Source: a virus
Virus record (IMG/VR): IMGVR_UViG_3300045997_000034
Span: 1 to 50,799 of that record
Direction: 5' to 3' (one strand)
Length of the DNA stretch: 50,799 bases
Positions 1 to 47,970 of this stretch are shown here, one piece after another (position 1 is the first letter of the stretch; every line of letters starts with the position of its first letter). The position numbers and the translations under genes were made by a program. The notes below the pieces were generated by a model. That model was not told where the DNA came from. It ran no database searches and saw only the letters and a program-made list of their open reading frames with translations.

Positions 1-2392
1 CCATGTCTGGGTTAGCCTGGCGCTTCTGTGAGACTAGGGCGTTAGCAACGATCTGGGCTTGTCTTTCGAGGGGGCGATTGCTAACTGCTACGGCCAGCTT
101 AGCGTTGAGCGAGTTGACCTGAGGTTTGTACACCACCCTAGCAGAGGGCGATTGTTTGAGAGGGGGGGTTTCTTCTCGACTCTTACGTGCAAGATTGGCA
201 AGACTCTTGACACTGTTAGAGTAATCGGCATACACCTTCTCAATGTTCGTACCAGATGACAAGGTGTGTGCATCGTCAGTCTCGGCAAGCTTAGACGATG
301 TGATCTTCTTAACTACAACGTTGCCATCACGTCCGACAAACGATGCACCAGTGTCAACGTACACCTTCTTACCAGTGGCCTTGTCTACACCACCACCCTC
401 AGCTGCAGGCCTAGCCTTACGATCGTTCACCCTTACATCAGCACCTGCACGAGAGATCAGTGTAGATGCACCACCTGCACGCCCATCAGGCTTGGCTTGG
501 TACTTAGCCTTTAATGCAGCAATGCCGTTGTCTTTGGCCGAGGCTTTCCAGTCCAAGACATGTTTCTCAGCATCAATGACAACCATAGAGTGTCGGACAG
601 CACGAGCAATCTCATCCGTGTTGGCGCCCTTGATTGTCATGTCTGTGATCAGGTTTGACACATCCCCCATCTGAAAGCCCTTAGTGCGGCCAGATGGTTT
701 CTTTCCAGGAGGGTAGACTTCCTTCTTCGTCTTAGCATCCCATGTTCCGCCACCCATGGTAGGCATACCATCATACGGCGGATAGGAAGTCTTAGGATCG
801 AAGTTCTTCAGACCAGCCAATGCAGGAGTGGACTTGATCAAACCTTTGCCATTAGGGATTACTAGAACAGCATCCCCATCAAAGTCTGCTCCGGACAACC
901 TTTCTGCTACTCGAGAGTTAATCCCAACAGCATCAGTAGCTGCACCAAGAAGCTTCTTAGCTTCAGGATGGTTGTTGTTCACAGTGAGTTCGGGAATCTC
1001 GAAAGTTCCGCCATGAGGAAAGCGGACTAGAGCAACCCTTTCTCCAGGCCTGAAGTTTGGCGCATAGATCTCGTTGTCTTTCAGTGAGTTCACAGGCAGG
1101 ATCACATGTGTGCTCTGACGTGGAAGTGCTTTGGCCTTTAGATGCACAGCAGCAGAATCTGCACCATCAGCGAAGTCTTCTAACAACTTTCGCTTTACTG
1201 TTGGGTTGGTCAATGACATGATCTCTTCAAGCTGCTCTTTCTTACTCAAGTACGTAAGATCAAGTTGTGCCTTAGCAAACTTGGGACTTTGCTTAGACAA
1301 GAGCTGAGGAGCAAGGTTCTTAGACCACGTGTCCCAGACACCTTCTTCATTCACCTTGTTCATCACAGATGAGGGCATACCATCAGGACCCTTGATCTGA
1401 CGAACAATTGCACCAAACGGATTCTCAGGATCATCACTGATCTTCTTCATTGCATCTGTCTTGCGGCCTGTGTTTGACTTGTTCGTGTTGAACAACACAT
1501 CCACACCTGCAGGCAGGTCATCTTTGTACATGGCCATGCCTTTTAGGTAATGCGTTCCATCTACAAGAACGCGAACCTGTGCATACTGCTTTCCACCGAT
1601 AGACACGTCTTTTACGCCTGGACGAACGTACATCACACCGTCAGCGTCAGCACCACCATCTTCAGCATAGCGAATTCCAACTCTTTTGGAGCTGAGCGAA
1701 AGCGGAGGCTTTACACGATCGAAAGTCTCGCCACCGTCTTCACTACGATCCGCAATCTGCTTAATGTTTGCCCTGTTTTTAAAAACTTGAGAATAGGGCA
1801 CATTTGGCGCGGTGAGGACTTTCAGAGTGGTTTCTTTTCCAGTACCAAGCTGAACGACTTTGACATAGTGCACTTTGTAGCCTTCATTCTGCAAAACGGC
1901 AATTGCAGAGTTCAGCTTGTCTCGAGTGACCCCGACATGATGCTCGACACCACTGCCAATGTCGATGTACTCTTTCTTAGCAACTTGGTCTTTCAGCATA
2001 TTTGCCGTGACATGCATGACGTCAAGTTTGTCTTTCTGGCCCGGAGCCAACAGCGATCGAACAGAGGATTCGTTGATCTTCATACGTTCGCCAATAGCGA
2101 CGTTTGACAAACCCTTAGTTTTCAAGCGCTGAGCCATGTTGATCTGATCTTGCTTCTGACGATTCTTTTCAATCGTCTTCTGAACACGAAGTTGAGTTGT
2201 AGTGATGCCCAACCCCTTAGCAACCTCAGGTTCACTAAGGCCCTGTCGTTTCAGATCTTCAACCATGTCCAAGAATGACTTGTTTCGAGGACTGGCAGCG
2301 TCGTCTTCTCCACCTGAACCCCAAGGATAGCGCCCCGAGTGACGAGGAGTTCCATAGTGTGCAAGGTAATCCTCTTCATCAATCTCAAACAC
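1..2392 (-). CDS. RNA-polymerase-like protein (DFDGD motif), 3' end outside window
   Basis: The frame is open without a stop from the GTG at 2392 to the window edge, giving at least 797 residues. The GTG shares one base with the TAG of the upstream gene and follows GAGGAGG at seven bases. Residues 501-507 read GADFDGD, the loop that holds the catalytic magnesium in the double-psi beta-barrel of cellular RNA polymerase beta' subunits and of single-chain phage relatives such as YonO. Residues about 38-110 hold two helix-turn-helix-like segments (around LSEPEVAKGLGITTTQLR and LSNVAIGERMKINESSVR). Residues 12-27 form a tag, HYGTPRHSGRYPWGSG, resembling the H-[YF]-G tags of head-module proteins. 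Similar phage proteins are often left unnamed; polymerase activity is inferred from the motif. I did not identify the second barrel, bridge helix or trigger loop. Confidence 0.7.
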   Translation of the reverse strand, partial: MFEIDEEDYLAHYGTPRHSGRYPWGSGGEDDAASPRNKSFLDMVEDLKRQGLSEPEVAKGLGITTTQLRVQKTIEKNRQKQDQINMAQRLKTKGLSNVAIGERMKINESSVRSLLAPGQKDKLDVMHVTANMLKDQVAKKEYIDIGSGVEHHVGVTRDKLNSAIAVLQNEGYKVHYVKVVQLGTGKETTLKVLTAPNVPYSQVFKNRANIKQIADRSEDGGETFDRVKPPLSLSSKRVGIRYAEDGGADADGVMYVRPGVKDVSIGGKQYAQVRVLVDGTHYLKGMAMYKDDLPAGVDVLFNTNKSNTGRKTDAMKKISDDPENPFGAIVRQIKGPDGMPSSVMNKVNEEGVWDTWSKNLAPQLLSKQSPKFAKAQLDLTYLSKKEQLEEIMSLTNPTVKRKLLEDFADGADSAAVHLKAKALPRQSTHVILPVNSLKDNEIYAPNFRPGERVALVRFPHGGTFEIPELTVNNNHPEAKKLLGAATDAVGINSRVAERLSGADFDGDAVLVIPNGKGLIKSTPALAGLKNFDPKTSYPPYDGMPTMGGGTWDAKTKKEVYPPGKKPSGRTKGFQMGDVSNLITDMTIKGANTDEIARAVRHSMVVIDAEKHVLDWKASAKDNGIAALKAKYQAKPDGRAGGASTLISRAGADVRVNDRKARPAAEGGGVDKATGKKVYVDTGASFVGRDGNVVVKKITSSKLAETDDAHTLSSGTNIEKVYADYSNSVKSLANLARKSREETPPLKQSPSARVVYKPQVNSLNAKLAVAVSNRPLERQAQIVANALVSQKRQANPDM

Positions 2393-21936: not shown

Positions 21937-21948
21937 GATGGTCCTTTC

Positions 21949-21995
21949 GTAGGGGGTCTCACTATACAGCTTGTTATTCTTGCGAGACCCCCTAC
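21949..21995 (-). promoter_or_regulatory. Array promoter flanked by 12-bp inverted repeats
   Basis: Minus strand: TCGCAAGAATAACAAGC, then TGTATAGTGAGACCCC, with -10 TATAGT at 21966-21961. This copy alone is enclosed by a perfect inverted repeat, GTAGGGGGTCTC (21949-21960) and GAGACCCCCTAC (21984-21995), which could hide the -10 in a cruciform or bind a regulator. Confidence 0.6.
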
Positions 21996-22013
21996 AGAGT
22001 TAGAGGTCCGAGA

Positions 22014-25570: not shown

Positions 25571-25588
25571 GGCGTGGCCTTTCGTAGA

Positions 25589-25621
25589 GGGGTCTCATTA
25601 TAAGCCATGTAAAATATGCGA
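25589..25621 (-). promoter_or_regulatory. Array promoter (75-aa gene)
   Basis: TCGCATATTTTACATGG, then CTTATAATGAGACCCC on the minus strand; -10 TATAAT at 25602-25597. The upstream part is slightly diverged. Confidence 0.65.
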
Positions 25622-25623
25622 GT

Positions 25624-25659
25624 AAAACCTAAATACCGTGTTAGGGTATCGAGGCTTTT
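25624..25659 (-). terminator. Array terminator (86-aa gene), weaker stem
   Basis: Arms 25624-25637 and 25645-25659 pair with one bulge and a 2-base mismatch; loop GTGTTAG keeps the family TTAG. Confidence 0.5.
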
Positions 25660-38728: not shown

Positions 38729-39023
38729 CTCCAAGCCTCAAGATAAGTCGGGGTCTCTGAATATCAACATCTGAGATTTTCCACAGAGACCCCGACCACT
38801 TGACATAGCGCATGTTTGGAAAGTTTTCATTTGCGTAAGCATCTGAAACGATACTGATTGAGTTTCCTACAGTCATATCGTCGTTAACACTTTCCCCATT
38901 TGCGTACTTCTTGGTGTTACGGAGGACGTCACCACGGTAATATCGCTCCGTAATGACGTCCTCCCACACTCCAGGCGCAGATTCCACAGTGCTACCGTAA
39001 CCGATCACATCGTGGAATCGCAT
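38706..39023 (-). CDS. Head closure / head-tail connector protein
   Basis: 105 residues from ATG 39023 after AAGGAG; longer frames overlap the capsid gene without a ribosome site. ERYYRGDVLRNTKKYANGES, VSDAYANENFPNMRYVKWSG and IQRPRLILRLGGVYNG are typical of a small head-closure family that follows capsid genes. Confidence 0.75.
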   Translation of the reverse strand: MRFHDVIGYGSTVESAPGVWEDVITERYYRGDVLRNTKKYANGESVNDDMTVGNSISIVSDAYANENFPNMRYVKWSGSLWKISDVDIQRPRLILRLGGVYNGPT

Positions 39024-39039
39024 CTGGTTACTCCTTGGA

Positions 39040-41049
39040 TCAGGCAGGCCGCTTGAAGAACCAGCTGTCCACGTGGTCGTCGTTGGTGGAGAAGTAGTAG
39101 CCAGCCGCCGGAGTGGCGTTGACCGTGGTAGAAGCGCCGGCCGCCAGAGCGGTCTGAGCACCAGCGGTCAGAGTGGTACCCGCGGCGTTCTTGTAGACAA
39201 CACCGGTCTGCGCCGGGATGGTCACAACGCCGGTGGCCGACACGAAGGTCGGGTCATTCGGGACAACCAGAACGTTGGTCGAAAGGGTCTTACGGATCAC
39301 CAGAGCGGACTTCACCTTCACCAGGGCGCCGGAGAGCCGGGTCTCGATGAGGTACTTCTGCTGGTTGTAGTCGATGTCGAAGTCGTCGAACATCGACACC
39401 TCGCCACCCTTGTCCGTACCCACGTTGAAGTCGGACAGGTTGACGATGATACCGATCAGGTCGGTGCTGTCGTTCATCGGCTCAACCGTGATGATCCGGT
39501 CGACACCCAGAGCCGCAGCCACATCGGCGTTGGTCGGGTAGAGACGCCGGCCCTGAGTGTCCTTGGCCTGCTTGAACTTGTTCAGAGTCCGGATCGTGGT
39601 GTAGAAGTCCGGCGTACCGGTCCCCTTGTAGTACTCCATCCCATCCATGACCAGGTCGATGACCTCATCGTAGGTCGAGTTGGCATCGTCGATGTTCGCC
39701 GTGATGGTGGTGGCGTACAGCTCGTTGTCGTTCGCGATCGAGCGGATACCGATACCATCCGCGGCGCCGATCGGGTCCTTGATCTTGTCCGGGTCGGAAA
39801 CGCTCCGGCCGTCGCCGATCAGGATGGCCCGAGCAACCTCCTCCTCGAGCATCATGCGCATTTCCTGCTTGAGCCACGCGATAACGTCGAAGCCGGTGAT
39901 GTCCAGAACGTCGTCCCGGTCCAGCTTCTGCTTCTTGTAGACCGTGGTGGGCGAGGTGACTCGCTTGCTGACGCCGAACCACTCCTCGACCTTCATGCTG
40001 CCCTTGACGTAACCCTTTGCACGAGCCTCGTCAAGGGTCAGGTCAGCCACGATGCTCTTCACCCGAGAGAACGGGCTGTGGCTGGTCTGCGCCAGAACCT
40101 GGGCAACCCACTCGGTCCGACGCTTGTTGAACTCCGGACGGTCGTTCAGGGTCTGCGCGTCCGGGAACAGCAGATCGATGTTGGTGATGCCGTGCTGCAG
40201 AGCGTAGGACTCCACAGCGTCACGCAGAGAACCGCCACGGATGGCGCTCTGGATAACGCCCTTGACGTCATCCTCAGACATGGCGTGACGCAGCTCGCCG
40301 CCGGCCGTCTGCTTCGGAGCGGTCTTGCTGTTGGTCTCGAAAACGTTCAACTGCGTGCCTTCTTCCTGGTGAGCGAGGTTGTCCTCGGCGTCTTTTGAAT
40401 CTTCAGACATGCTGGATTGTGCCACCGAGGGCGTGGCGGCCTCAAGAGCCTGGCCGATCATGTAGGTCACGACCCGCTTCTCGTCTTCGGTGAGGTCGTC
40501 GTAAACCTCTTTGATGGTGCGATCCTGAAGTGCGTGCTCAATTTCTGGATCGAATTCGTCCTCTTCGGGCTCTTCCACCTCAGAATGTTCAAGCGGAAGA
40601 CCGGTGTAAATGACGGCTTCATCCTCGAGAACCTCAGGATCGAAACCTTCCCCATGGGCCACACGAACGAAGTCGATGAGTGCACCCTTGTTGGCGCCAG
40701 AAAGAACGAGACTGACCTCTCGGATCATTCCGTGCAGAACGCTCTTGGACTTCTCCACAAGCTGATTCGCGTAGATAGACATCGCAGTGATGTCCTCGTG
40801 CTGAACCATTGCCTTTGCCGACTGACCAGCAGACGTCTTGTTGAAGAAACCATAAGCGTAAACGCCATCGGGACGGGCTTCGAGGACTGCGTGACCGAGA
40901 ACATTCTCGACCTTGTCGTGCACGTGCTGCCACACGAGTGGGACCTTCATCCCATCCATGTGCTGGAAGGCCTGAGGCGTGATGGTTCGACCATCAGTGC
41001 ACTTCAGCCCAGCCTTGGTGGCGTAGCCGCTGAAATCCGCTGCTTCCAT
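39040..41049 (-). CDS. Fused prohead protease and major capsid protein
   Basis: 669 residues. Residues 1-140 are an HK97-type U35 protease: YATKAG, PLVWQHVHD with the catalytic His, ITAMSIYANQL with a Ser, and VSLVLSGANKGALIDF. An acidic scaffold-like linker (EDEFDPEIEHALQDRT) runs to about 260. The rest is the capsid protein (SLRDAVESYALQHGI, EEEVARAILIGDGR, then the ALGVDRIITVEPMN region). The last 70 residues (NDPTFVSATGVVTIP, TGVVYKNAAG, PAAGYYF) are the add-on domain also on the tail tube. Self-cleavage should release protease and linker. Codons strongly GC-biased. Confidence 0.92.
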   Translation of the reverse strand: MEAADFSGYATKAGLKCTDGRTITPQAFQHMDGMKVPLVWQHVHDKVENVLGHAVLEARPDGVYAYGFFNKTSAGQSAKAMVQHEDITAMSIYANQLVEKSKSVLHGMIREVSLVLSGANKGALIDFVRVAHGEGFDPEVLEDEAVIYTGLPLEHSEVEEPEEDEFDPEIEHALQDRTIKEVYDDLTEDEKRVVTYMIGQALEAATPSVAQSSMSEDSKDAEDNLAHQEEGTQLNVFETNSKTAPKQTAGGELRHAMSEDDVKGVIQSAIRGGSLRDAVESYALQHGITNIDLLFPDAQTLNDRPEFNKRRTEWVAQVLAQTSHSPFSRVKSIVADLTLDEARAKGYVKGSMKVEEWFGVSKRVTSPTTVYKKQKLDRDDVLDITGFDVIAWLKQEMRMMLEEEVARAILIGDGRSVSDPDKIKDPIGAADGIGIRSIANDNELYATTITANIDDANSTYDEVIDLVMDGMEYYKGTGTPDFYTTIRTLNKFKQAKDTQGRRLYPTNADVAAALGVDRIITVEPMNDSTDLIGIIVNLSDFNVGTDKGGEVSMFDDFDIDYNQQKYLIETRLSGALVKVKSALVIRKTLSTNVLVVPNDPTFVSATGVVTIPAQTGVVYKNAAGTTLTAGAQTALAAGASTTVNATPAAGYYFSTNDDHVDSWFFKRPA

Positions 41050-41069: not shown

Positions 41070-41624
41070 CTACTTTTGGGTTGGGCTGCTTGACTTGACC
41101 GCAGTCTTCGACTTGCTTGACGACGCGTTAGCAACAGCTTTGGCACGAAGTTTGGCAATTCGTTTCTCCATCGTTGCAATCTTCGCCGTTAGATCTTTGG
41201 CTTGCGTAGATAGAGACGTTGGTTTGGCATCGTTCTTATGCGCCTTTGCGTACTTTTCCGCAGATTTCTTAGCCGCTGCTTCTTGCTTTGCGGTTTTCTT
41301 CTCCGGTTTAGCTGCACTAGACGTTGCGTCAGAAAGTTTAGATGCCGCGCTCTTTGACGTGCCGCCACTTCGAGCTTGTGCTGCCTTTACAAGCTGCTCA
41401 ACAACCTTCTTCAAAGCATCGAGGCGAGCCTTTAGCGCATTGACTTTTGCCTCTAGAGCTTTATGTTTGGCTACTTTTGCAGCTTTAGCGGCAGCTCTTT
41501 TTGCTGCGGCAATAGCCGGATCAACTTTCTTTCTACCCTTCAACTTTCGGGTTCGAAGATAGTAAGCCCGGCGTTTAGCGGCGTCGTACTCGTGTTGAAG
41601 AGAAGACTCAGACCCCAAGTTCAT
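41070..41624 (-). CDS. Lys/Ala-rich head-associated protein, 184 aa
   Basis: ATG 41624, five bases after AGGAG, inside the end of the portal gene. The start SSLQHEYDAAKRRAYYLRTR then KLKGRK resembles a short N-terminal motif common on phage head proteins. The rest is Lys/Ala-rich helix (coiled coil near 60-85) and a basic Ser-rich tail. It could be a scaffold or an internal DNA-binding head protein. Confidence 0.65.
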   Translation of the reverse strand: MNLGSESSLQHEYDAAKRRAYYLRTRKLKGRKKVDPAIAAAKRAAAKAAKVAKHKALEAKVNALKARLDALKKVVEQLVKAAQARSGGTSKSAASKLSDATSSAAKPEKKTAKQEAAAKKSAEKYAKAHKNDAKPTSLSTQAKDLTAKIATMEKRIAKLRAKAVANASSSKSKTAVKSSSPTQK

Positions 41625-42987
41625 CAAGACTCCTCATGATCTCATCGATCGTAGAGTTAGCCCCGTCCAGTGCCGATTGAACTGCAGCACTGCCATCATC
41701 TTCCTCCGGATCTTCTTCCGGCAAAGGATCAAGCGACGGATCTTCTGGGTCGGTTTGGTCTGTGGTTGCAGCATCGGCCGGCAAAGGTTCAGCTGGCTGA
41801 GGCATGTTGCTGTTGATAAGTTTGTCAGCCTTCGGGTCCTTAGACGGCTTCCAACCAATAGCAGAACGCATATCGTTAGCCGACGCGATTTCGTTCCGCG
41901 TGAACTTATCTGCAATTTCCGCGATTTGTCCAATAGGAACAAGTTCAAATGGGTCACGGTAATACTTGACAGCCTGTCCCTGAGAGCGGGCTGTTTTAGT
42001 CAAAAATGAGCGAGTCATACCTTCGATGATTGCATTCAAAACCGGTTTAATTGTCCGGTTCATATAGTTCAACATCGCCTGCTCATCCGCGGTACCGTTC
42101 ATGACAGCGTCGGTTAGCCCAAGCTGAGCATACAACATCGCCGTTAAATATTCGACCTGGGTAAGAAGATTGTTCTCTGCGGGACGGTTAAGCTGAGTGA
42201 TCTTTTCCGTGCCATCAGTGTATGCGATACCGTACTTGCTGCCCTTGAGCTGGAACTCAATATCAGTTCGGCGTTGTTCTGCCTGCTGACGTCGAGCTTC
42301 AGACTTGATCACATACGGCAGCTGAATGATCATGTCGAGCTTACCTGAGCTAGATGCCTCATCGACCGAGTCCAACATGTTAAGCTTACGAATAAGCCTC
42401 TGCAAAGTTGAGTTCGGCTGATTCATCACCTCATAAAGAGGATTTTCGACGATCGCTACGTACTTCTTTTCAAGAGTAAGTTCTGTTCGGTACCCGAGCT
42501 CCTGGTTGTAGAGCAACACACGAATATGATTAGGGTACCAAGCTACGATCTCTCCGCATCGCAAAGTCTTGATGTCGAACGATCCAAATTCACTTGGATC
42601 TAGTGTTGTGTCGACAGGAACGATAGCGGCAACGCCTTTGTCAAACAACGTCATAGCTACGTCTTGCCGAAATGCTGTAGCGGCCTGATCTAGATTGGCT
42701 TCTACCGTAAGACAGTTGTGTAGTCCACTTTTGATGTCCTCAACGAACTGTTCGTTATCATCCAACCGAACATGCCGTAGGGGGACTGCAGAAATATCAA
42801 CGCTCAGTCTTGTGTAGATTGACGAGATGATTGATCGCTCATTCGAGTAAACCCGACGAGCTCTATCTGGACGCGGACCATAACTAGCACCAAGTTCTAG
42901 AGGTCGACCGTAACCTTCGTCACGCTCTTGTTCCTCATTGGTGAAAGCGTTCCAAGCATGTCTGATCTTATCTCCGAATTTTGCCAC
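41608..42987 (-). CDS. Portal protein
   Basis: 459 residues, GTG after AAAGGAGG. Position after terminase and sequence (IISSIYTRLSVDISAVPLRH, AIVPVDTTLD, LNMLDSVDEASSSGKLDMII, LYAQLGLTDAVMNGTADEQA, PFELVPIGQIAEIADKFTRN) fit HK97-type portals, the dodecameric ring for DNA entry. The acidic Pro-rich C-terminus is flexible. Confidence 0.9.
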   Translation of the reverse strand: MAKFGDKIRHAWNAFTNEEQERDEGYGRPLELGASYGPRPDRARRVYSNERSIISSIYTRLSVDISAVPLRHVRLDDNEQFVEDIKSGLHNCLTVEANLDQAATAFRQDVAMTLFDKGVAAIVPVDTTLDPSEFGSFDIKTLRCGEIVAWYPNHIRVLLYNQELGYRTELTLEKKYVAIVENPLYEVMNQPNSTLQRLIRKLNMLDSVDEASSSGKLDMIIQLPYVIKSEARRQQAEQRRTDIEFQLKGSKYGIAYTDGTEKITQLNRPAENNLLTQVEYLTAMLYAQLGLTDAVMNGTADEQAMLNYMNRTIKPVLNAIIEGMTRSFLTKTARSQGQAVKYYRDPFELVPIGQIAEIADKFTRNEIASANDMRSAIGWKPSKDPKADKLINSNMPQPAEPLPADAATTDQTDPEDPSLDPLPEEDPEEDDGSAAVQSALDGANSTIDEIMRSLDELGV

Positions 42988-43021: not shown

Positions 43022-43618
43022 TTACTTTACGCGATACTCCATGGTTGTCAACCCGCCCCAAACAAGATCGGTTGGGTCAATGTCTTCTTCGAGAACTTTA
43101 AACCCCAACTTTTCATAAATATGTCTGGCGTCTGGAGAATTTCCAGGAACTTCGAGAGTTACCTTTTTGTAACCACCGGCTTTTGCTTGGTCTTGAACCG
43201 CACGCATAGCTTCAGTGGCATAACCTTTCCCTCGAGAACCCTTTTTGACGTCAATCCAATTCACATAGAGGTCATCTTCACTTTTTTTGGCAATGATGGC
43301 TTCGCCAAGTTTTTTGCCATCTTTGTCGTGGAGAGTAAGAAAGGCGCCCTTGTTGTACATGTTGGTGTATCTAGTGCTCAAACGAGATAAACCTTTAATC
43401 ATAGCGTTTGGCGGGTTTTTTGATATGACCAACTTGTCGCCACTTGCTGTGGTTCTTTCAATTCGATCTGGTCCAAGACCGACAAGCTTGGGTTTTGATG
43501 AAGTTTCTTTTCGAACGCCCCAATGCATACCCTTGACACCGAAGTGTTCAATCATGGAGTCTAAAGACGGCTTATCGGCATCCAAATATATGCGCTTTGT
43601 TTCGTGATGCGTTGACAT
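43022..43618 (-). CDS. Tagged GNAT acetyltransferase
   Basis: 198 residues, AGGAGG before the ATG. Residues 25-36 read HFGVKGMHWGVR, the head-module tag. Residues about 90-195 are a GNAT fold: LYVNWIDVKKGSRGKGYATE holds the acetyl-CoA pyrophosphate loop (G-S-R-G-K-G), followed by VTLEVPGNSPDARHIYEKLG and FKVLEE. It would acetylate an unknown substrate. Its place between terminase and portal plus the tag suggests an injected or head-bound enzyme. Confidence 0.78.
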   Translation of the reverse strand: MSTHHETKRIYLDADKPSLDSMIEHFGVKGMHWGVRKETSSKPKLVGLGPDRIERTTASGDKLVISKNPPNAMIKGLSRLSTRYTNMYNKGAFLTLHDKDGKKLGEAIIAKKSEDDLYVNWIDVKKGSRGKGYATEAMRAVQDQAKAGGYKKVTLEVPGNSPDARHIYEKLGFKVLEEDIDPTDLVWGGLTTMEYRVK

Positions 43619-43649
43619 TTAACCTCCTCTCCATGATAAAGATATGTTA

Positions 43650-44066
43650 CTACTTGTTGTAGGCCCCGGTTTCCTGCTTGCGTTCGATTCGTCGAGAGTG
43701 TGCCGACGTTACTGCAATTCCCGCTAGAGGAACTGCCGCGCCAACCCCGGTCAAAGCGAATACTCCAAGAATCGCTTTTTCACCACGGGTCAATCGAGCA
43801 GCAGTAACCCGATCCGGATTCTTCAGAAACTCAATTTTCATGTCTGCTAGTTTTTCTTTCCCAGCAGCACGTTCCGGACTTCGACCCTTGGTAGTTCTCA
43901 CCAGGTCGTTTGCTGCCTTGTTGTATTTTGCAGCTTCTTTGTTCACGTTTGCTCTGGCAACTCGAATTTCATCACCGGTAGCTTGCGCTCGAGTCTTACC
44001 CCACTTCATTCCGAGAACGCCGTAGTGGCGCAGCTCTTCCAAAGACGGTTTTTCATCATCGATCAT
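43650..44066 (-). CDS. Tagged head-associated membrane-type protein, 138 aa
   Basis: ATG overlaps the terminase stop (ATGA) with AAGGAGG upstream. PSLEELRHYGVLGMKWGK at 8-24 is the head tag. A charged helix follows, then one hydrophobic segment (ILGVFALTGVGAAVPLAGIA) near the C-terminus. A membrane segment on a head-module protein fits a role in genome entry, but this is inference. Confidence 0.7.
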   Translation of the reverse strand: MIDDEKPSLEELRHYGVLGMKWGKTRAQATGDEIRVARANVNKEAAKYNKAANDLVRTTKGRSPERAAGKEKLADMKIEFLKNPDRVTAARLTRGEKAILGVFALTGVGAAVPLAGIAVTSAHSRRIERKQETGAYNK

Positions 44067-45808
44067 TCAAAAGCCTCCTTGTTAGCTTTGTATGCCACAT
44101 AAGCGTCCATCAGGGCAGAAACGTTGTCGATCTTTTCTTCTTGGCGCTTCTTCAACAGTTTACGGTTGCCATTAGTGTCTTCCAATGTGATTGCGTTTCC
44201 CATGGCAAAGGTCATGAGATCCTGATCAAATATAAGAAGACGTTCTTCGCTGAGTTTCTTGAGCTCTCCAAGAGGCACTGATTCGGTTCGTGCACCCTGA
44301 ATAACTTTCTCTACACCGAATGGACCATTCTCTGCTTCCCATCGAGTTACAAATTCTTTGGCGTTGTATGGGTCAAACCCAAAGGTTCTAACATCATACT
44401 CCGTCGATGCTATGAACGCATCCAAGTCGTCATAGACTTCCATCATGTTAAGAATGTTTCCATCCAGAACATGAAGGCTTCCTTCGGTAATAAACTGTTC
44501 ATACTTCTGTCGCATTGCTCCTGGCAAACGAAGCATTGTCAAAGATGAAATATAGCTTCGAGTCTTAACGCCAAATGAATCGTTACCCAAGGGGAACAAG
44601 AATGTGAATGCACAGAAGTCATCGCCCTGTGAAAGGTCGGCGCCAAGTGAACAAGGCATTCTCCAGAAATCGCGTTTACGATGAGGGAGTGTTTCCTCAT
44701 AAGTGAAGAAGTATGTGTAACCCTCCATAGGGATTCCAAACCTCTTTGCCAAAATATCGTTGCGCGATGCTGGAGCTTTCTCAGCTCGTTCGACGTCCAG
44801 ATGATAGACGTCGTAAGTTACAGTTTTGCCAAGATTTGGATTTGCTTTCAACCATAGTTCTGGATGGTTGATTTCATCAAGTTCATCTAACTTGTAATGC
44901 CAAATAGAAATATGCGGCGCAAGGTAATCACCTTTAAGAATGTCGGAAAGCTCCATCTTAATTGTGTCACCGGAACCGTTTCGAACAGTCCCCTCTGAGC
45001 TGATCGCTACAATCAAATAATCGTCCAGTTTGGACGCACCCTGCTCAATTGCGCCAACTACATCTTCGCGAATATCGCCAGACAACCATTCGTCAACCGT
45101 TGAGATCTTTGGCCGCAGACCCTGAAGTTTGTTAATAGACATGGGCCGAACTTCAAGCATAGATCCAGTCAAAAAGTTTTCGACGCCTTTTTTTGTCGAA
45201 GCTAGTTTGACTCGATTTGCTTTTGACCCGGTTGTGTTTTGCAAAGAACCTTCCGTCAAAAATTTGAACAGAGGTCCTCTAGATCGGGTAATAGAAGTTC
45301 TGATAGGCGACATAACTTCGTCGGCCTGTTTCATTGTTGGCGCAGTACTAATCTGATGGGTTGTTGCTGTGTCGACATTCAAGAAATAATTCTGGATGCA
45401 AGATGCGTACATCGACTTTGCTGCGCCACGAGCCACAATCAAATATTGCTTTGTGGTCAATCGCTTCTTGATTGTCTTGGTCACATACTTTCCCCCGTGA
45501 CCATCTTCTGCTGGCTGATACACACTTCGCTCAACAAAGAAGTACCAGCCAAATATCTGTTCAGCCCAGAGCTTGAACGACGGTAGCAAGTGTAAGTCAC
45601 TACCGTCGGTCAAGGTAAGCTCATTCTCACAGTAAAGAATAAATCCTTCAACTGCAAGATCGTCGTAGTAAATGTTTGGGTTGGCGATGAGCGCATCAAT
45701 GCGATTCATCTCCATTGCAATCTCGCGGTTTACGGGAACACTACCCCGAAGTACAGCTTCGCGAAACTGGCCATAATATGTAGGCGTCGCAGTACATGAC
45801 AGCGCCAT
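44063..45808 (-). CDS. terL: Terminase large subunit
   Basis: 581 residues from ATG 45808 after AGGAGG. ATPase: Walker A-like VARGAAKS, Walker B ISTVDEW. Nuclease: LGADLSQGDDF, FGFDPYNAKEF and KIDNVSALMDAYVAY hold the acidic residues of the RNase-H-like domain. It pumps DNA into the head and cuts it. The packaging-like small protein and HNH are 5 kb upstream, unusually separated by tail-spike and lysis genes. Confidence 0.93.
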   Translation of the reverse strand: MALSCTATPTYYGQFREAVLRGSVPVNREIAMEMNRIDALIANPNIYYDDLAVEGFILYCENELTLTDGSDLHLLPSFKLWAEQIFGWYFFVERSVYQPAEDGHGGKYVTKTIKKRLTTKQYLIVARGAAKSMYASCIQNYFLNVDTATTHQISTAPTMKQADEVMSPIRTSITRSRGPLFKFLTEGSLQNTTGSKANRVKLASTKKGVENFLTGSMLEVRPMSINKLQGLRPKISTVDEWLSGDIREDVVGAIEQGASKLDDYLIVAISSEGTVRNGSGDTIKMELSDILKGDYLAPHISIWHYKLDELDEINHPELWLKANPNLGKTVTYDVYHLDVERAEKAPASRNDILAKRFGIPMEGYTYFFTYEETLPHRKRDFWRMPCSLGADLSQGDDFCAFTFLFPLGNDSFGVKTRSYISSLTMLRLPGAMRQKYEQFITEGSLHVLDGNILNMMEVYDDLDAFIASTEYDVRTFGFDPYNAKEFVTRWEAENGPFGVEKVIQGARTESVPLGELKKLSEERLLIFDQDLMTFAMGNAITLEDTNGNRKLLKKRQEEKIDNVSALMDAYVAYKANKEAFE

Positions 45809-45823
45809 TGCCAACCCTCCTTT

Positions 45824-46675
45824 CTACTTTCCGGATAATGCCTTTGCGACCTTCTTTGCAGCGAAGTCGTTTGCGGCTCTGGTGGTTTGCTGCTTCCCGA
45901 CATTACCAAGAAGATCCACGATGAACTTTGTAGCTGCAGACTTTGGTGTTGGCGCAAGCGTGTTGAACTGTCGTTCCAAATTCATTCGTTCAATTGCCGT
46001 TCGAAGTTCATCATTCGAAAGAGCTTTTGTTCCCGTCTTCTTTCCAGTGGTCTTCAATTCACGACCACGGACAAAATCCGGATGAGGTTCTGGAGCCGGA
46101 GTAGAACCTTCACTCTTACGAACACCCCAGTGCATTCCCTTGACGCCATAGTGCTTCACTGGTTCGCCAAGAGTGATCGCTGTGATGATTCCATTTTTGG
46201 CTTTTGCTACTTTCAACTTTACGTTTTCAGCAGCATGCTTGATGTCTTCAAGAACCAAAGACCAATCGTCCTCGCCATCAAGAATATGAACGCCGAGCCG
46301 CTTTGTTCCGGAGGGATTTGATCCCAATGAATTTGCGTAGGTATTCAATGAATCAACAAAAGCATCCTGTACTTCTTTGTGATACTTCTTTGTGATTGGA
46401 TGATTGTCATTCAAGAACAATCCGGCATCGGCAGCTTTTTTGTATGCTGGCTTAGCATTGATTGAGTCGATTTTATTTGCGTTGAAGTCTTTTGCGCCGG
46501 CGTTGTAAATTTCAAAGAACTTTTGGGTAGTACTCAAGTTCTTCTCAAATTTCTGGTCAAGCTTTTGGAGCTTCTTTACTTTGACCGCTTCGCCTTCATG
46601 ACCCTTGTCATTTCGAACACCCCACTTCATCCCCTTGACACCGAAGTGTTCGAGGACGTCATCGAGTTCAGACAT
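45824..46675 (-). CDS. Head-associated protein with two tags, 283 aa
   Basis: AAGGAGG before the ATG. It carries two copies of the tag: HFGVKGMKWGVR at 10-21 and HYGVKGMHWGVR at 175-186. Between them is a helical and mixed domain (KLDQKFEKNLSTTQKFFEIY, TKRLGVHILDGEDDWSLVLE); after the second comes a helix with LSNDELRTAIERMNLERQFN. It looks like two tagged units fused. Possible scaffold or internal protein. Confidence 0.72.
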   Translation of the reverse strand: MSELDDVLEHFGVKGMKWGVRNDKGHEGEAVKVKKLQKLDQKFEKNLSTTQKFFEIYNAGAKDFNANKIDSINAKPAYKKAADAGLFLNDNHPITKKYHKEVQDAFVDSLNTYANSLGSNPSGTKRLGVHILDGEDDWSLVLEDIKHAAENVKLKVAKAKNGIITAITLGEPVKHYGVKGMHWGVRKSEGSTPAPEPHPDFVRGRELKTTGKKTGTKALSNDELRTAIERMNLERQFNTLAPTPKSAATKFIVDLLGNVGKQQTTRAANDFAAKKVAKALSGK

Positions 46676-46694: not shown

Positions 46695-47066
46695 TTAGTA
46701 CGGTGTTGGGGTGATTTCGATCAAAGGGTGTAGTTTTCCTTCTCGGTACGTGTTCAGACGCCATTCGAGTTCCGCAATCTGCTTCTGCATCGCGTCGATG
46801 TGAAACGAAGTAGACGGCGGATCGAACAGCATCCGAACACGCAACCAGATGTACGTCTTGACGGCAGCCAACATTGCGTCATCGCCGATGAAGTCAGCCC
46901 ACACTTCTTCGGCACCCCCGATGGCGAAGCCGTTTTCCGGGCCGATTCCGAGCTGGTTCAGAACCATGAACATCGAATTGATGTGCATAAGGATGTCGAT
47001 GTCGAATCCTTCATCCACCTCGTCGAGGCCCAAAACCTTCTTCACACTATTGAGGATGCTATCCAT
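46695..47066 (-). CDS. gp6-like head-tail connector
   Basis: 123 residues from ATG 47066 after AGGAGGTGAG. ILNSVKKVLGLDEVDEGFDI, DILMHINSMFMVLNQLGIGP, WADFIGDDAMLAAVKTYIWL and VRMLFDPPSTSF fit phage gp6-like connector proteins, the adaptor below the portal. Its place before the terminase is uncommon. Confidence 0.75.
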   Translation of the reverse strand: MDSILNSVKKVLGLDEVDEGFDIDILMHINSMFMVLNQLGIGPENGFAIGGAEEVWADFIGDDAMLAAVKTYIWLRVRMLFDPPSTSFHIDAMQKQIAELEWRLNTYREGKLHPLIEITPTPY

Positions 47067-47085
47067 GTGGTACTCACCTCCTAAA

Positions 47086-47970
47086 TCAGGTGTTGTTGAG
47101 GTTACGCTTTCTCGCTGCGAGGAATGCGTTGTCTGTGCGAGGACCCCATTGACCATCCGGAGTAAGTCCGAACGCCTTCTGGAACTCCTTAACCCAGTTG
47201 ACCAATCCAGTCTGAGTCTTGATTCCCCAGACGCCGTCCGACTTGGTGTCAACCACCAACTGCGCAGACTTCACGTTGACCTTACCCGCAACCTTCTTTG
47301 GGTAACCAACGTGGGCTCTAGCTGCAGCCCTCATGTTTCGAGCAATGGTATCGGTGAGCTTGTCCCACCTGCCATTTTGAGGAGTCTCGAGCAACTTCTG
47401 AAGTTTCTTGACTTCGGTTGGGTTTGGCTTCGGCTTTACCGACGTCGGTGGAACTGACGGCGTCGGAACAACTGGGGCGAGACTTTCCCAAGCAAAGCGG
47501 ATGTAGCCGACGATGTACTTGCCATCTCGCCGCATACGCTGAAGCTTGTTCCCGCTGGTATTACCTTCCAGAACATAGAACGTTCCGTCACCAAGAATCT
47601 TCTCGACGATTCCAGTATGGTCAACGATTCCGACAGAACCCTTACCGCCCTTCCAGTCGTAGTAGACCTGATCTCCAGCCCGCATGCCCTTGGTGCCATA
47701 ATGCCAACTACTAGCGTTGACTCTAGCCTGTGCATCCTGTGCCGCCCAAACGGTGTAAGCTCGAGCCTTCTTCAAGGTCTTTGCTCCACCGGTGTGCATT
47801 GCCCAGGAACCTGTCATCTCACACCAAGGGCCGTCGCCAATCTTTTCAACGTTCTTGTTGTACCACTCCGTGATGAAGTTGTGGTTGCTATTGGCCGGCG
47901 TCTCGCCAGTACCAAGTGCACCACGAAGGCGATCGAGGACTTTGTTGATCGAGCTGGTTACCGACGCCAT
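47086..47970 (-). CDS. Endolysin: CHAP amidase/peptidase with peptidoglycan-binding domain
   Basis: 294 residues. CHAP domain about 30-162 with catalytic C50 (GPWCEMTGSWA), H118 (GIVDHTGIV) and E135-G-N137. The C-terminal 100 residues contain peptidoglycan-binding repeats (DGVWGIKTQ, DGQWGPRTDNAFLAAR). It cuts peptidoglycan cross-links or the amide bond. No signal peptide, so the holin at 27048 must release it. Its site upstream of the head genes is far from the holin; a virion role is not excluded. Confidence 0.88.
   Translation of the reverse strand: MASVTSSINKVLDRLRGALGTGETPANSNHNFITEWYNKNVEKIGDGPWCEMTGSWAMHTGGAKTLKKARAYTVWAAQDAQARVNASSWHYGTKGMRAGDQVYYDWKGGKGSVGIVDHTGIVEKILGDGTFYVLEGNTSGNKLQRMRRDGKYIVGYIRFAWESLAPVVPTPSVPPTSVKPKPNPTEVKKLQKLLETPQNGRWDKLTDTIARNMRAAARAHVGYPKKVAGKVNVKSAQLVVDTKSDGVWGIKTQTGLVNWVKEFQKAFGLTPDGQWGPRTDNAFLAARKRNLNNT

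Follow-up and report, generated by a model that had tools for sequence, protein, structure and literature searches.

Encapsulin cargo-loading peptides are C-terminal and load enzymes into an HK97-fold shell. The capsid targeting sequence (CTS) of phage T4 is a conserved peptide that forms the only common part of diverse small proteins, which are packaged into the head and injected, and some of which counter host defence (PMC3012670, PMC9391042). Two-barrel RNA polymerases (RNAPs) have likewise been reported or predicted in virions, as for gp66 of crAss phage phi14:2 and gp96 of Thermus phage P23-45 (PMC10770324). Here we analyse a 50,799-nucleotide stretch of viral DNA (IMG/VR record IMGVR_UViG_3300045997_000034, positions 1 to 50,799; hereafter the window), in which a short tag, H-[YF]-G-V-[KL]-G-M-x-W-G, is carried by three head-module proteins and has a relative on an RNAP-like protein. 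We favour, with fair rather than strong confidence, the reading that the tag is a virion-loading (cargo) tag, which is the most likely of the explanations considered.

The tag occurs in four copies of 12 residues each in three genes, all on the minus strand, at the places where an earlier note on this DNA, made from the sequence alone, had put them. All four copies are members of the Pfam family DUF7211 (PF23847; 25 positions), scoring 37.2–48.3 bits against a curated gathering cut-off of 27 bits, and residue shuffles gave the motif 0 times vs. the 4 observed. Pfam assigns no function to DUF7211, and our literature search found no paper naming it. The tagged genes and their tag copies are as follows:

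43022..43618, minus strand: tagged GNAT acetyltransferase, 198 amino acids (aa) (Pfam Acetyltransf_1 4.2e-12; DUF7211 5.8e-10)
43511..43546, minus strand: tag copy 1, HFGVKGMHWGVR, aa 25–36 of the GNAT open reading frame (ORF) (DUF7211 41.8 bits)
43650..44066, minus strand: tagged 138-aa protein with one hydrophobic segment (relatives at L012 and L083)
43992..44027, minus strand: tag copy 2, HYGVLGMKWGKT, aa 14–25 of the 138-aa protein (DUF7211 40.0 bits)
45824..46675, minus strand: double-tagged 283-aa protein, directly upstream of the terminase large subunit gene (TerL); counterpart of Lactococcus phage 1706 ORF7 by position and motifs
46613..46648, minus strand: tag copy 3, HFGVKGMKWGVR, aa 10–21 of the 283-aa protein (DUF7211 48.3 bits)
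46118..46153, minus strand: tag copy 4, HYGVKGMHWGVR, aa 175–186 of the 283-aa protein (DUF7211 37.2 bits)

The GNAT assignment is supported by an Acetyltransf_1 score of 46.8 bits (cut-off 20.7), and the hydrophobic stretch of the 138-aa protein, ILGVFALTGVGAAVPLAGI, has a mean Kyte-Doolittle value of 2.06. When the tags were masked, the four tagged proteins of the window (RNAP-like ORF included) had no significant similarity to one another, which bears out the earlier note's view that the parts behind the tags are unrelated. A look-alike, HYGTKGM at 47703, lies within the CHAP domain of an endolysin ORF (47086–47970); it lacks the WG, is not a DUF7211 match and is probably due to chance.

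A search of IMG/VR with a degenerate DNA pattern for the tag returned at least 120 stretches holding 258 tagged ORFs, 236 of them complete; the counts given here for the tag set rest on these matches listed. In 195 of the 236 complete ORFs the first tag lies no more than 40 residues from the start; others are internal (aa 173–199, many of them after 2H domains) or C-terminal (portal), and 20 of the 258 ORFs bear two or more tags. After masking, the 236 complete ORFs fall into 152 clusters at E 1e-8 and 50% coverage, and loose single linkage (E 1e-4) still leaves 82 clusters, the largest component holding 144. Among 150 representatives, Pfam recognizes DUF7211 in 148, together with attached domains of widely different kinds: GNAT (4), 2'-5' RNA ligase/LigT-like 2H phosphoesterase (2), ADP-ribosyltransferase exoenzyme (ADPrib_exo_Tox; 1), Gln_amidase papain-fold toxin (1) and portal (1); by motif count, about 23 tagged ORFs contain both HxT motifs of the 2H phosphoesterases. 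The number of tagged proteins per genome ranges from 1 to 8, and the largest array seen consists of eight DUF7211 tags within about 10 kb of the 25.7-kb contig G010 (L034). Two DUF7211-tagged ORFs, L064:2021-3043 and L082:773-1819, have a papain-fold toxin 1/glutamine deamidase domain, that of L082 scoring below the Pfam cut-off.

Residues H1, G3, G6, W9 and G10 are invariant over 281 tag copies, these being the same residues that the search pattern fixed; their synonymous codons, which the pattern left unconstrained, are used near-evenly. Judged from these copies, the tag is selected at the protein level. We rejected the idea of a shuffled DNA cassette or recombination hot spot, because the invariant residues use all their synonymous codons near randomly. 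We also rejected the idea that the tag is part of a fold: in AlphaFold models, the two tags of the 283-aa protein (residues 1–30 and 171–193) and that of the RNAP (residues 1–37) all sit in the lowest-confidence segments, with a predicted local distance difference test (pLDDT) score below 50, the models being built on alignments of just 11 and 24 sequences. Comparison of the 283-aa protein model with PDB structures gave no match. The wide variation of the attached domains, the predicted disorder and the selection at the protein level thus lend good support to the suggestion that the tag acts as an address and does not belong to a fold. A tag always fixed to one domain, which the earlier note said would refute its idea, is not what the profile across phage proteins shows.

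The RNAP-like protein encoded at the left end of the window begins with LAHYGTPRHSGRYPWGSG and bears its own form of the tag:

2..2392, minus strand: predicted two-barrel single-chain RNAP (phrog_4291, E=0 over the whole length), its C-terminus lost at the contig end
2312..2359, minus strand: RNAP form of the tag, HYGTPRHSGRYPWGSG, aa 12–27 (16 residues), conserved in 24 RNAPs, disordered in the model and similar in profile to the DUF7211 tags

In the RNAPs examined, this form, H-[YF]-G-x-x-[RK]-x-SGRY-x-WGSG, is an N-terminal element; among the 24 homologues its H, G, SGRY and GSG are invariant and its P and W nearly so, and the catalytic DxDGD motif, here DFDGD, is invariant as well. Aligned with hhalign, the profiles of the RNAP tag and the DUF7211-type tag match with Prob 95.5 and a score of 30.3 over 13 columns (D-x-L-x-HYG), vs. 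a best score of 18.7 among 200 column-shuffled profiles. The DUF7211 model itself did not match the window RNAP and gave only weak, sub-cut-off matches to the RNAPs of its relatives. By profile comparison, therefore, the RNAP tag is a distinct relative of the DUF7211 tag: the earlier note was right that the polymerase-like protein shares the form of the tag, but the two are not identical, because DUF7211 does not recognize the tag of the window RNAP. In the RNAPs of L173, L175 and L176 the tag reads HYGVK, as in the DUF7211 tag (HYGVKRRSGRYPWGSG). The RNAP tags at L172:1459-4233 and L174:1387-4260, on contigs of bacterial genomes, contain an insertion and a W-to-L change (HEGVSILDGSPGRGSGRYPLGSG and HYGRSKLDGAPGRGSGRYPLGSG). 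A tblastn search with the RNAP tag matched 273 phage records at 274 places; among the matches listed, records of the group match near their right end, at the RNAP gene, and the Escherichia matches have E > 1, i.e. they are due to chance.

Foldseek aligned the RNAP model with QDE-1 (2j7n; probability 1.00, E 3.7e-9) and with 8f72 (E 1.9e-8), with low global TM-scores (~0.3). On the evidence of the model, the RNAP is a two-barrel enzyme by fold, matching QDE-1 and P23-45 gp64, so that P23-45 and the crAss phages would provide precedents for early-gene transcription by a virion RNAP (PMC10770324). A sequence search of the PDB with the RNAP and the tagged set matched nothing. Scanning the window for a promoter motif of the RNAP turned up only an inverted repeat, GAGACCCC, found in four of the 16 minus-strand intergenic gaps (among them window 21937–22013, 25571–25640 and 38735–39039). 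The element is partly an inverted repeat (GGGGGTCTC...GAGACCCCC) and is twice followed by TACGAAAGG; it may serve the phage RNAP as a terminator or promoter.

The tagged genes of the window surround TerL and lie upstream of two candidate receptors for the tag:

44063..45814, minus strand: terminase large subunit, between the tagged genes
41608..42987, minus strand: portal protein, alternative candidate receptor of the tag (its homologue at L114 bears a C-terminal tag)
39040..41049, minus strand: protease–major capsid protein fusion (phrog_3270), candidate receptor of the tag (present in 30 of 30 tag-bearing contigs)

TerL, portal, protease–capsid fusion and RNAP occur in an order that matches Lactococcus phage 1706, which identifies the window phage as 1706-like. 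Other phages of this group have relatives of the tagged GNAT, in the terminase–portal region; more distant GNAT relatives occur in unrelated large phages. In 50,697 phage records, the tag query matches 239 and the RNAP query 250, with nearly coinciding tallies by host (tag/RNAP: Arthrobacter 95/95, Gordonia 55/55, Streptomyces 54/54, Curtobacterium 7/7, Rhodococcus 4/4, Microbacterium 4/4), and the query for the protease–capsid fusion finds nearly the same set of records. All of 30 long tag-bearing contigs contain the fusion, and 21 have RNAP matches, 19 of them strong. A clear RNAP was found in 15 of the 18 tag-bearing contigs of at least 40 kb; in two of the other three (G015 and G029) its expected place lies past the contig end, and the third (G011) has a weak fragment near its right end. 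In a set of 391 genomes from one bacterial class, three have the tag, and the RNAP is found in those three and no others; as one of these (G037) was the chosen centre of the set, the coincidence concerns the other two among 390, with a random probability of 1 in 75,855. The RNAP was not matched in seven tag-bearing bacterial genomes, which does not show absence, because most tag contigs there are short (4–9 kb). Gene position is regular: of 89 tags, 86 are found on the strand of the capsid gene, 1–10.5 kb upstream of it, where a uniform spread would put 21; in 17 of 17 cases the RNAP is also upstream on that strand, at a distance of 10–20 kb when the map is read as a circle. The tag, the RNAP and the capsid fusion mark one coherent phage lineage. 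In 11 contigs of the set (G001, G002, G004, G007, G016, G021, G023 and G025–G028), the last ~30 residues of the protease–capsid fusion family recur on a ~300-aa protein ~1.5 kb downstream, which suggests a surface domain shared by the capsid and another virion protein.

Three lines of evidence connect the tag to the virion. The depositors' record of Lactococcus phage 1706 (EU081845) labels ORFs 6, 7, 11, 12, 17, 20, 21, 62, 71 and 75 "structural protein" and ORF13 "major structural protein". ORF7, beside the terminase, contains two tags (HRGVIGMRWG and HKGVKGMKWG), and its RLQAEQQF motif corresponds to RMNLERQF in the 283-aa protein of the window; ORF75, named RNA-dependent RNA polymerase in RefSeq, is an RNAP with the tag HYGTKRHSGRYPWGSG and DFDGD. 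These labels are the strongest functional clue, as record-level evidence for the presence of ORF7 and the RNAP in virions; for the RNAP this means the label of ORF75, which is repeated in the ReqiPepy6 record, where 1706 gp75 and gp07 are cited as structural. The labels reportedly stem from mass spectrometry by Garneau and colleagues in 2008. For actinophages of the group, our literature search found no published virion proteomics. The ORF at 46695–47252, which adjoins the double-tag gene of the window, resembles by eye 1706 ORF6 (ILFDPP/MLFDPP motif), also labelled a structural protein. Secondly, the portal at L114:5124-6575 bears a tag at its C-terminus, followed by a short tail that ends after ~45 residues and is possibly the remnant of a portal–tag–enzyme fusion. 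Finally, untagged homologues of the tagged 2H phosphoesterase occur in Microbacterium (Squashvirus) and Arthrobacter (Tankvirus) phages, where a single polyprotein of 833–1084 aa has the enzyme flanked by a MuF head domain on one side and additional head-protein sequence on the other; these polyproteins have no tag, and their annotation reads capsid maturation protease/MuF fusion or virion structural protein. Loci of this MuF–2H phosphoesterase–head protein type, with both HxT motifs, are L196:1802-5029, L197:1772-4273 and L198:1799-5053. As the untagged homologues are built into MuF head proteins and the tagged ones belong to the 1706-like group, the 2H enzyme family appears to have two ways into the head, MuF fusion elsewhere and the tag in this group.

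We infer that the tag is probably an address label by which proteins are loaded into the particle, to be delivered into the host along with the DNA. In this proposal, H-[YF]-G-V-K-G-M-x-W-G and the longer RNAP version, HYGxxRxSGRYPWGSG, would be short linear loading tags of 1706-like phages, each putatively sufficient for loading; during head assembly the tag would dock on a conserved head component, most likely the shell of the protease–capsid fusion or the portal, and docking would hold the attached protein in the virion. The cargo (RNAP, acetyltransferase, 2H phosphoesterase and toxin-like enzymes) would then leave with the DNA, so that the phage may bring along both a transcription machine of its own for the early phase and effectors or anti-defence enzymes. 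The idea that the tag brings enzymes into the capsid for delivery, first put forward from the sequence alone, thus gains the 1706 labels, the L114 portal tag and the MuF fusions of untagged homologues as supports, while the role of the tag as the loading signal and the entry of the cargo into the host stay at the level of a proposal.

Several points weigh against such a role. The "structural" label of 1706 is a record entry, co-purified abundant proteins can be mislabelled, and the label does not place the proteins within the virion; other structural proteins of 1706 have no tag. The receptors of the tag are candidates only, and the RNAP tag aligns with DUF7211 in its first half only. As the tag, the RNAP and the capsid fusion are the core of one lineage, their co-occurrence may reflect descent rather than function, and by itself is therefore no proof of a functional link. 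These phages are, moreover, siphoviruses, and an 800–1000-aa polymerase would have to unfold to pass through the long tail or be located in the tail; the RNAP may lie in the tail rather than in the head.

Part of the same evidence could be explained in other ways. The clustering of tags around terminase and portal, the tag on the portal itself and the helical double-tag protein conserved directly upstream of TerL would also be expected of a head-assembly motif, the tagged proteins then serving in structure or packaging, through binding to portal, terminase or capsid, rather than as cargo bound for the host. We regard this as rather unlikely, since many tagged proteins are effector-type enzymes, genomes differ in how many tagged proteins they encode and a related tag is found on the RNAP. 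The near-perfect co-occurrence of tag and RNAP could instead mean that the RNAP is the receptor, on which tagged proteins dock in the cell, or with which they travel, to form a transcription complex; however, the RNAP bears a version of the tag itself and has no obvious pocket, the capsid fusion co-occurs with the tag at least as strictly, and the portal tag has no obvious transcription role, so that we consider this explanation unlikely.

The presence of the protease–capsid fusion in every tag-bearing contig tested would also fit a tag that the protease domain of the fusion recognizes or cleaves and that is removed at maturation. For T4, the title of Mullaney and Black 1996, as cited in PMC9391042, states that the capsid targeting sequence permits proteolytic processing. 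We find a role of this kind on its own improbable, because cleavage at internal tags (aa 175 in the 283-aa protein, ~aa 180 after 2H domains) would cut the protein in two, but cleavage may accompany loading. Common ancestry alone, by which one expanded family has diverged everywhere except in a tag that has no separate role, could draw on the component of 144 among the 236 ORFs joined by single linkage; it is very improbable, as enzyme folds of different superfamilies carry the tag at the N-terminus, internally or at the C-terminus, and the invariant tag residues persist where the rest does not align.

Returning to the tag as a loading signal, its reach may be broad. We give about an even chance to the wider proposition that, across a widespread phage group with hosts in Actinobacteria and Firmicutes, one portable peptide code loads the head with the phage's own RNAP and a varying assortment of effector enzymes, which are delivered with the genome, so that the siphovirus head would have a cargo bay and all these RNAPs would be virion polymerases. 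Our analysis proposes a function for DUF7211 that can be put to the test, and the same function would extend to well over 100 families of uncharacterized phage proteins that share only the tag. If the tag does load proteins, the group's RNAP would act from the virion in the first minutes of infection, and a 12–16-residue siphovirus head-loading tag would provide a sequence-only route to new injected anti-defence proteins.

The tag resembles several known systems without coinciding with any of them. Encapsulin peptides are alike in being short and in bringing enzymes into an HK97-fold shell, as the tag here would do; they differ from it in being C-terminal, in serving a non-viral shell and in involving no injection. 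MuF fusions are alike in that a head-associated domain carries enzyme domains, including the same 2H phosphoesterase family, whereas MuF is a folded domain in a large polyprotein and the tag a disordered peptide of 12 residues that sits on separate proteins. The RNAP shares with crAss phi14:2 gp66 and P23-45 gp96 a single-chain two-barrel architecture with DFDGD; however, gp96 of P23-45 forms a fusion with the tape measure protein, whereas the RNAP here is separate and carries a 16-residue tag, and by Foldseek it is closer to QDE-1 and to the non-virion gp64 than to gp66 or gp96. The T4 CTS and the tag have in common one short conserved peptide on diverse proteins. Packaging and injection are experimentally established for T4 and proposed here; the tag is not confined to the extreme N-terminus but can be internal, repeated or C-terminal; and it occurs in siphoviruses with a protease–capsid fusion and has a relative on an RNAP. 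By analogy, rather than by membership, the tag may work like the CTS of T4.

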